Below are positions 35,667 to 37,979 of a stretch of DNA of 64,000 nucleotides, piece by piece. Each line of letters starts with the position of its first letter. The stretch's first letter is position 1. The stretch comes from Deltaproteobacteria bacterium (lineage in GTDB: Bacteria > Desulfobacterota > Binatia > Binatales > Binataceae), in assembly GCA_021780225.1 (NCBI GenBank), contig JAJXZF010000030.1:1-64000 (forward strand), in the 5' to 3' direction. A model generated the notes under the pieces. That model ran no database searches. It was not told the origin of the DNA and was given only the letters and a program-made list of their open reading frames with translations. The position numbers were made by a program, and so were the translations under genes.

Positions 35667-36110
35667 GTGGCTGACGCGAAACCGCGCGCGCCGTTGAACG
35701 ATTTGAATCGGCTGATTCGCGAGAATCGTGTCGCCGACTATCCGTCGCCGAATCTCGCGCTCGGGATGGCGCCGGTCGAATTCGGATCGGGAACGTCGCG
35801 ATGGCGCTGGCAGGTCCAACCCGCCGTTGCGCTGAATCCGTTCGGCACGGTGCAGGGCGGCTATATCGCCGTGTTCATCGATGAACTGCTCTCCACCGCG
35901 ATCGCGTCGGTGCTGGAAAACGATGAGTGGGCGATGACCGCCGAATTCAAGATAAATTTCCTGCGTCCGCTCGCGCCCGGCCCAATCGACGGGAACGCGC
36001 GCGTAATCAGGCGCAGCCGGACGCTCGCCTTTCTCGACGCCGAAGCCGCCGGCGCCGACGGCAATGTCGCCGTGACCGCGTCTTCGACCTGGGCGGTTGT
36101 GCGGCGTTGA
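35667..36110 (+). CDS. PaaI-family hot-dog thioesterase
   Basis: A 147-residue single hot-dog domain protein. The signature helix is VQGGYIAVFIDELLSTAI (about residues 61-78), with the catalytic acidic residue in the helix (Asp/Glu) and the following strand MTAEFKINFLRPL. It probably hydrolyses an acyl-CoA thioester. The start is GTG at 35667. It is smaller than the tandem hot-dog protein at 7222 and not its obvious paralogue partner. No operon partner points to a substrate. Confidence 0.85.
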   Translation: MADAKPRAPLNDLNRLIRENRVADYPSPNLALGMAPVEFGSGTSRWRWQVQPAVALNPFGTVQGGYIAVFIDELLSTAIASVLENDEWAMTAEFKINFLRPLAPGPIDGNARVIRRSRTLAFLDAEAAGADGNVAVTASSTWAVVRR

Positions 36111-36236
36111 CGCGGAACCGCCGGGATTGGAAGCTGAGGCTTCGCTTTATTGACCGAAAATCGGGCGATCGATATAAACGCTGCGCGCGGCGCTCGCATG
36201 AGCTTTCCGCCGGCGCATTAAACATCGAGGGTGGTC

Positions 36237-36905
36237 ATGTCTGAAACGTCGCATAGCAACAATCCGGTCGCGGCGCTTGATTCCGTGGCGCGGGAATTCA
36301 GCCTGCTGAAGCATCCGTTTTATCAACAATGGACCGCCGGCGAACTGGCCCCGGAGCGTTTGCGCAACTACGCCGCGCAATATTATCGGCACGTGGCCGC
36401 GTTTCCCCGCTACCTGAGCGCGCTGCATTCCCGATGCGGCGATTTACCGACGCGCCAGACGCTGCTGGAGAATCTGATTGAAGAGGAGGCGGGCGCGGAA
36501 AATCATCCGGAGCTGTGGTTGCGCTTCGCCGCGGCGCTCGGGTTGACGCGCGAAGAGGTGCTGGCCGCCAACCCCCTGCCGGCGGCCGACGCGCTGGTGG
36601 AGACCTTCACCCATCTGACCCGCGAGGCGCCGCTCGCGGCCGGGCTGGCCGCGCTCTACGTTTACGAATCGCAGGTGGCGGAGGTCGCCGCCGTCAAAAT
36701 CGACGGCCTCAAACGCTTCTACGGAATCGCGGACGAAGCCGGCCTGAAATTCTTTGCCGTTCATCGCGAGGCCGACGTTCATCATGCCCGCGCGATCGCG
36801 AGCCTGATCGAACGCCACACCGAAACGGCGCAGGACGCCCGCATGATGCTGGAAGCGGGCGGCGCGGCGCTCAAGGCGGTGTGGAATCTGCTCGACCGCG
36901 TTTGA
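36237..36905 (+). CDS. CADD-type diiron/Fe-Mn oxygenase, probable self-sacrificing pABA synthase
   Basis: A 222-residue heme-oxygenase-like (TENA/PqqC fold) protein of the CADD family. In Chlamydia, CADD makes p-aminobenzoate from its own Tyr27 and Lys152 at a dimetal site. With a uniform +2 offset all reported residues are present here: metal ligands Glu83, His90, Glu144, His176, Asp180 and His183; sacrificial Tyr29 (in HPFYQQW) and Lys154 (in AVKIDGL); and Tyr45. FFAVHREADVHHARA carries the last three ligands. The start is ATG 36237; a GTG two codons upstream is possible. bioB follows 75 bp downstream on the same strand. Function is inferred from residue conservation and family knowledge. 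Confidence 0.85.
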   Translation: MSETSHSNNPVAALDSVAREFSLLKHPFYQQWTAGELAPERLRNYAAQYYRHVAAFPRYLSALHSRCGDLPTRQTLLENLIEEEAGAENHPELWLRFAAALGLTREEVLAANPLPAADALVETFTHLTREAPLAAGLAALYVYESQVAEVAAVKIDGLKRFYGIADEAGLKFFAVHREADVHHARAIASLIERHTETAQDARMMLEAGGAALKAVWNLLDRV

Positions 36906-36980
36906 AAGCGGCTGCGGCGCCGAATCCTTTCGTATCGCAGGCGGCAGCCACGGATCGCCGCTCGGAAACGGGAAGCGTAG

Positions 36981-37979
36981 ATGGAATTTCTTGACCTGCA
37001 ACTGACCGAACTTGCCGATCGCGCGCTCGCGGGCGGCGAGCTCCAACGCGCCGAGGCGTTGGCGATTCTGAACTGCCCCGACGGCCGGCTGCCCGAGCTG
37101 CTGGCGGCGACGCTCAAGGTGCGCGAAGCGGCGTTCGGCCGCCGCGTCAAAATCTGCATCCTGCGCAACGCGCAGAGCGGCATCTGTCCGGAGGATTGCG
37201 GCTACTGCTCGCAATCCCGCGTCTCGCGCGCGGACATTCCCGTTTACAAGATGCAGACCGTCGAGGAATTGCACGAGGGCGCGCGCCGCGCCGTCGCCAG
37301 CGGCGCCCGCCGCTATTGCATGGTTGGCAGCATGCGCGGACCCGCCGCGCGCGATATCGCCCATCTCGAGCAGGCCTGCCGGCGAATTCGCGCCGATTAT
37401 CCGGACTTGGAGCTGTGCCTCTCGATGGGCCTGATGGAGCGCGATCAGGCCGAACGGCTCAAAACCGCCGGCGCCGGATGGATCAATCACAACCTCAACA
37501 CCAGCCGCCGCTTTTATCCTGAAATCTGCACCACGCATACCTGGGACGACCGCGTCCGCACGATCGAAAACGTGCGCGCCGCGGGCCTCTCGGTATGCTC
37601 GGGCGGAATTATCGGGATGGGCGAGACCGACGAGGACGTGGTCGATCTCGCCTTCGCCACGCGGCGTATCGCGGCCGATTCCGTGCCCGTCAATTTCCTT
37701 CAACCGATTCCCGGAACGCCGCTCGAACATGCCGCGCGGCTCACGCCCGAGCGATGCCTCAAGGCGGCGTGCCTGTTCCGGCTGTTGAATCCGCGCAGCG
37801 AAGTCCGCGCCGCGGGCGGCCGCGAGCTGAATCTCGGCGCGCGCCAGGGCGAAATCTTCAACGCCGTCAATTCGATTTTCGTCAACGGCTATCTGACCAC
37901 CAGCGGATGGGCCTACGAGCGGACGCGAGAGCTGATCGAAAGCGCGGGTTTCGAGGTCGAGCCGCCCGCCGGCGCCTGA
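36981..37979 (+). CDS. bioB: Biotin synthase
   Basis: Inserts sulfur into dethiobiotin. The 332-residue radical SAM enzyme has the [4Fe-4S] motif CPEDCGYC (about residues 71-78) and the [2Fe-2S] ligands expected near MVGSMRG and in later strands. CSGGIIGMGET and VPVNFLQPIPGTPLE are strongly conserved BioB segments. No other biotin gene lies in the window. It follows the CADD-like gene by 75 bp and precedes a methyltransferase; that grouping is probably one transcript. Confidence 0.95.
   Translation: MEFLDLQLTELADRALAGGELQRAEALAILNCPDGRLPELLAATLKVREAAFGRRVKICILRNAQSGICPEDCGYCSQSRVSRADIPVYKMQTVEELHEGARRAVASGARRYCMVGSMRGPAARDIAHLEQACRRIRADYPDLELCLSMGLMERDQAERLKTAGAGWINHNLNTSRRFYPEICTTHTWDDRVRTIENVRAAGLSVCSGGIIGMGETDEDVVDLAFATRRIAADSVPVNFLQPIPGTPLEHAARLTPERCLKAACLFRLLNPRSEVRAAGGRELNLGARQGEIFNAVNSIFVNGYLTTSGWAYERTRELIESAGFEVEPPAGA

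Follow-up and report, generated by a model that had tools for sequence, protein, structure and literature searches.

The window analysed here, a 64 000 nt stretch of DNA from a member of the Binataceae, carries a gene whose predicted product of 222 aa is, by its sequence, a further member of the CADD/PabS group of self-sacrificing p-aminobenzoate (pABA) synthases, an enzyme type that was known beforehand. We consider it highly probable that the product is an O2-dependent dimetal oxidase of the heme-oxygenase-like fold which would make one pABA per polypeptide and most likely replaces PabAB and PabC in feeding dihydropteroate synthase (FolP). The evidence obtained here comprises the sequence, the predicted fold, the identity of the key residues, the absence of pabB and pabC and the presence of folP.

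Two start codons are available to the ORF, GTG at 36231 and ATG at 36237, and the ATG, with GAGGGTGG immediately 5' of it, is preferred. The product scores 268.4 bits against the NCBIfam model TIGR04305 ('CADD family putative folate metabolism protein'; cut-off 200), and its nearest solved structures by sequence are 9pj4, CT610 (1rcw) and CtCADD (8va9), with E values of about 1e-52 to 1e-54 (phmmer E = 8e-54 for 9pj4, a 4-aminobenzoate synthase, and 3e-52 for 1rcw, CT610/CADD). The AlphaFold2 model (mean pLDDT 95.8) has a heme-oxygenase-like helical fold that superposes on CADD, with TM scores of 0.93 (query) and 0.96 (target) and an rmsd of 1.0 Å against the CtCADD structures 8va9, 8vag and 1rcw; the next-best fold matches are PqqC, UndA, TenA and BesC. 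The profile scores speak against identity with PqqC (62.3 bits, equivalog cut-off 240) and with TenA thiaminase II (20.6 bits, salvage TenA cut-off 130), and BesC was rejected on the same basis. An Rfam search of the entire window returned no matches.

Table 1. Location of the CADD-type gene, its key codons and its neighbours in the window
Feature	Coordinates	Strand	Basis
CADD-type self-sacrificing p-aminobenzoate synthase gene (predicted, 222 aa)	36237..36905	+	TIGR04305 score, phmmer, fold
Tyr29 codon, predicted sacrificial Tyr (CADD Tyr27, NePabS Tyr25)	36321..36323	+	alignments
Tyr45 codon (CADD Tyr43; NePabS Tyr41, essential)	36369..36371	+	alignments, PMC11965152
Tyr49 codon (NePabS Tyr45, putative radical relay)	36381..36383	+	alignments, PMC11965152
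Glu83 codon, metal ligand	36483..36485	+	alignments
His90 codon, metal ligand	36504..36506	+	alignments
Tyr143 (metal-selecting site; CADD Tyr141, NePabS Phe148) and Glu144 (metal ligand) codons	36663..36668	+	alignments
Lys154 codon, predicted amine donor (CADD Lys152, NePabS Lys159)	36696..36698	+	alignments
Phe172 codon, metal-selecting site (CADD Tyr170, NePabS Phe177)	36750..36752	+	alignments
His176, Asp180 and His183 codons, metal ligands	36762..36785	+	alignments
Hotdog-fold (PaaI-like) thioesterase, upstream neighbour	35667..36110	+	TIGR00369 43.9 bits, 4HBT
Biotin synthase bioB, downstream neighbour	36981..37979	+	TIGR00433 369 bits, tblastn

Residue positions were taken from the phmmer alignment to CT610, in which residue 13 of the query is paired with residue 11 of CT610 and no gap falls across any of the named residues, so that the offset of +2 to CADD is exact. 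The initial annotation had reported such a constant offset for Tyr29, Tyr45, Glu83, His90, Glu144, Lys154, His176, Asp180 and His183, and all nine indeed stand at the CADD positions, an agreement far above chance; alignment with CADD and the Nitrosomonas homologues, a check proposed in the same annotation, again places Tyr29 and Lys154 on the CADD positions. The dimetal ligand set is complete, with three histidines and three carboxylates, and the predicted sacrificial tyrosine and lysine are accompanied in the alignment by the tyrosine that is essential in NePabS (Tyr29, Lys154 and Tyr45, respectively).

Tyr29, Tyr45, Tyr49 and Lys154 are kept in 15 of 15 Binataceae CADDs (family alignment), and neither they nor the six ligands vary among 96 CADD-family proteins. 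The same residues are kept in 80 loci from a wider genome collection, the best 80 of at least 388 confirmed relatives recovered in a scan in which each species was represented by one genome. That scan relied on two peptide patterns, which included Tyr29 and Glu83, respectively, and the invariance of these two residues is therefore partly built in; Tyr45, His90, Glu144, Lys154, His176, Asp180 and His183 lie outside the patterns. The six metal ligands by themselves are no proof of CADD function, since most of the heme-oxygenase-like paralogues from related genomes, when aligned beside the CADDs, retain the E,H/E/H,D,H pattern. In these same-fold paralogues Tyr29 is replaced by Trp, Ile, Val or another residue, and Tyr45 mostly by Phe or Trp; none of those aligned beside the Binataceae CADDs has an equivalent of Lys154, and none has the full Tyr29/Tyr45/Lys154 set. 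Judged from the alignments, it is this set, rather than the generic metal ligands, that is diagnostic for CADD. A family of heme-oxygenase-like paralogues within the Binataceae (L085–L095, e.g. in G421, G408 and G424) scores about 125–140 bits to the CADD model and has nearly all the metal ligands, but reads Trp/Phe/Phe at the sacrificial sites and lacks the Lys there, and for that reason these CADD-like proteins were rejected as additional pABA synthases.

Self-sacrificing pABA chemistry has been described for the proven enzymes (PMC11965152; review PMC13108848), and we infer every chemical step in the window protein from the biochemistry of CADD and NePabS. Our working hypothesis is that O2 would be activated at the dimetal site and a radical passed to Tyr29, the Cα–Cβ bond of which would be cleaved; oxidation to the carboxylate would take its oxygen from O2, Lys154 would be the amine source, and each protein molecule would yield a single pABA at the cost of its own Tyr and Lys, which would end as Gly and aminoadipate, respectively. 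Binatota genomes encode aerobic respiration (PMC8262859), which is consistent with the O2 requirement of the CADD reaction.

The metal-selecting pair of residues allows a specific prediction. CADD has Tyr141/Tyr170 and uses Mn/Fe, NePabS has Phe148/Phe177 and uses Fe/Fe, and the NePabS F148Y variant takes both (PMC11965152). In the window protein the pair is Tyr143/Phe172, as in NePabS F148Y, and we therefore predict that it is cambialistic, accepting either Fe/Fe or Mn/Fe as the engineered variant does. Among the 96 CADD-family proteins the pair is Tyr/Phe in 69, Phe/Phe in 20 (all of them from Nitrosomonadaceae) and Tyr/Tyr in seven, so that the two studied enzymes represent minority states in this sample. 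A limited search of the CADD/PabS literature found no description of a natural Tyr/Phe enzyme, and natural enzymes with this pair are now in hand.

Two homologues have proven biochemistry, CADD and NePabS (PMC11965152). NePabS of Nitrosomonas europaea (NE1434; PMC11965152) shares with the window protein the nine residues and the Tyr45/Tyr49/Trp94 aromatic set, and also a free-living aerobic host if, as we suppose, the window's host lives in that way; 9pj4, a close homologue of NePabS, is 46% identical to the window protein over 207 columns. Unlike the window protein, NePabS has Phe at both metal-selecting sites and carries an extra loop some 10 residues long. CADD of Chlamydia trachomatis (CT610; 1rcw, 8va9, 8vag) is 45% identical and has the same ligands and the equivalents of the sacrificial residues in Tyr27 and Lys152; it differs in its Tyr/Tyr pair and in being clustered with folate genes, whereas the window gene adjoins bioB. 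A second role in host cell death has been reported for CtCADD, and nothing in the window points to one.

The host is an uncultured member of the Candidatus Binatota (Binataceae), probably an aerobic soil bacterium and presumably free-living; Binatota prefer terrestrial and freshwater habitats (PMC8262859). That it bears LPS is based on inspection of nearby lptA/lptC-, kdsA- and kdsB-like ORFs. Its assembly (3.8 Mb in 118 contigs, 96.9% complete) was examined for the canonical pABA genes by profile searches, on which all gene absences given here for this genome rest. No PabB was found over the cut-off in the whole genome, the sole match being TrpE, and no PabC, the only class-IV aminotransferase (Aminotran_4) being IlvE (TIGR01122, 418 bits). 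FolP is present (282 bits). The search for pabB and pabC in the rest of the genome, which the initial annotation had recommended, thus found neither; the canonical route is not recognizable, and pABA is presumably needed. With Tyr29 and Lys154 on the CADD positions and PabB and PabC not found, the sequence offers neither a displaced sacrificial pair nor a complete pabABC route to set against the assignment. The pattern of folP with neither pabB nor pabC is to be read in the light of the family, in which many genomes have folP but no recognized pABA synthase. A literature search yielded nothing on how Binatota make folate.

In 41 genomes of the family that were compared, CADD over the cut-off is present in 15 and PabB over the cut-off in four, with both in none and neither in 22; the mutual exclusion is complete but carries little statistical weight, since sets of 15 and four among 41 genomes would fail to overlap with P = 0.15. 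None of the 15 CADD-bearing genomes has PabB over the cut-off or a second Aminotran_4 protein. All four PabB genomes have a PabC-like second class-IV aminotransferase, both of the two looked at have a PabA–PabB fusion, and none has a full CADD, one of them retaining a CADD relic. A quick tree places the Binataceae proteins in a single starred group, and CADD is therefore taken to be old in the family. Two events, a replacement and a loss, say more than the exclusion statistic. In the sister genus g2, G396 has CADD, and G149, G221, G264 and G398 have pabAB and pabC; G221, which has the PabA–PabB fusion (L045) and the PabC-like gene, also has the relic (L016 1498–1605/L223 3967–4073), 35 codons with 86% amino acid and 88% DNA identity to G396. 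By this sequence evidence CADD has been swapped for pabAB and pabC in genus g2, a natural replacement.

Loss has probably occurred as well. In G402, a congener of the window's host, the thioesterase and bioB genes are adjacent with about 40 bp between them and CADD is exactly absent (L222, G402:C16, 3771–3812, compared with 36110–36981 in the window). The DNA flanks of this empty site are 92–95% identical to G121 and 81–90% identical to the window; as G402 is closer to G121 than the window is, loss of CADD is likelier than two gains. No CADD, pabB or pabC was found elsewhere in G402. FolP is present in 38 of the 41 family genomes, including 21 of the 22 with neither route. These 22 (e.g. G379, G410, G418 and G421) have no CADD, no PabB over the cut-off and no PabC-type aminotransferase; some of the absences may be due to incomplete bins, although 19 of them are listed at ≥90% completeness. 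Given the unreplaced loss in G402 and the 22 route-less genomes, absence of the pab genes is not in itself proof that CADD feeds FolP, and in the Binataceae pABA may be salvaged or made by an unrecognized route, with CADD dispensable.

One possible explanation is accordingly that the CADD-fold enzyme makes pABA but is not its main or only source, pABA coming from soil by salvage or from an unrecognized route and CADD serving as a dispensable supplement. The clean, unreplaced loss in G402 and the folP-bearing genomes without either route are in its favour; against it, the strict conservation of the key residues in 15 of 15 Binataceae CADDs indicates that the gene is maintained where present, and the clear replacement by pabAB and pabC in four sister genomes suggests that the function matters. 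We regard this explanation as rather unlikely, though by no means negligible, and prefer CADD as the replacement of PabAB and PabC in the window's host. The cases of replacement (a relic in a genome with pabAB and pabC) and of loss (an empty site) make it possible to ask under which conditions a cell profits from an enzyme that works only once. As a joint proposal, which we consider less likely than not, Tyr/Phe enzymes may be the majority class of self-sacrificing pABA synthases and naturally cambialistic, the studied Tyr/Tyr and Phe/Phe enzymes being the exceptions, and the Binataceae may exchange CADD with the chorismate route or lose it, with a third, unrecognized source of pABA in about half of the family.

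Alternatively, chorismate might remain the source of pABA, with TrpE and TrpG of the host doubling as aminodeoxychorismate synthase and a non-homologous protein acting as the lyase. The host TrpG, which adjoins TrpE, does fall in the amphibolic TrpG/PabA family (TIGR00566), and TrpG is shared with PabB in other bacteria. TrpE itself, however, lies above the anthranilate synthase equivalog cut-off (TIGR00564, 576.7 bits against 517.7) and below that of the PabB model (295.6 against 328.4), and the host genome has no ADC-lyase-like class-IV aminotransferase besides IlvE, which together make this alternative distinctly improbable.

That the window gene lies next to bioB and away from folate genes counts somewhat against the preferred reading of a pABA synthase. 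The upstream thioesterase lies outside pABA synthesis as far as is known, and gene order varies within the genus. Linkage to bioB is limited to the window's genus plus a single other genus (G304), with variable gene order even there, and is a weak functional clue. The second PF03070 protein of the host genome is a true PqqC (L001, 332 bits, adjoining PqqB), which has the heme-oxygenase-like fold and shows weak similarity to the window protein (62 bits for the latter against the PqqC model); unlike CADD, it has neither the dimetal ligand set nor the Tyr/Lys residues. That the window protein is an oxidase of another substrate, for example one related to biotin or PQQ, and no pABA synthase, would fit the adjacent bioB in these two genera and the PqqC paralogue, but is highly improbable given that the bioB linkage is limited to a few close genomes, that the Tyr/Tyr/Lys set is invariant though needless for a plain substrate oxidase, and that TIGR04305 gives 268 bits against 62 for PqqC.

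The initial annotation was right in recognizing a CADD-type protein with all catalytic and sacrificial residues (TIGR04305, alignment and fold), and its main biochemical inference is very likely right; its premise of novelty, that this route is restricted to obligate intracellular species and a few nitrifiers, is wrong. The best 80 of the at least 388 relatives span about a dozen phyla, and Chloroflexi, Sphingomonas and Nitrosomonas had already been named as CADD/PabS carriers (PMC11965152). These 80 include Binatota, Cyanobacteria, Chloroflexota, Acidobacteriota, Verrucomicrobiota, Gemmatimonadota and Myxococcota, and also Bdellovibrionota, Neomarinimicrobiota, Ignavibacteria/Kapaibacteria, Actinobacteria MAGs, Nitrosomonadaceae and Rickettsiales. 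Among 45 CADD-bearing genomes across phyla, drawn from the best 80 relatives, PabB is over the cut-off in one, and in 15 no chorismate-binding enzyme of the PabB/TrpE superfamily was detected; the strongest chorismate-binding matches that were classified in the 45 are TrpE types, and several second matches at 100–176 bits lie outside this classification. This adds strong genomic evidence that making pABA with O2 and at the expense of the protein, far from being an oddity of parasites, is a general substitute for the chorismate route in bacteria of about a dozen phyla. The single PabB-positive genome (L182, G444) is a Chloroflexi MAG with a PabC-like aminotransferase beside PabB, a case either of genuine redundancy or of a bin of mixed origin.

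Linkage of CADD to folate genes extends beyond Chlamydia and Wolbachia. In Rickettsiales the gene adjoins folKP, folB or DHFR, some of these clusters including an F420-ligase-like gene too, while an Oligoflexia MAG has it next to folKP and folB, and a 'Deltaproteobacteria' MAG next to folKP (folate-clustered loci L114, L136, L149, L155, L164, L171, L142 and L116). In one member of the Nitrosomonadaceae, Hainich-H51-bin263-1, CADD occurs on two contigs (L130 and L132) with identical cores, as either an assembly duplicate or two copies of the gene.
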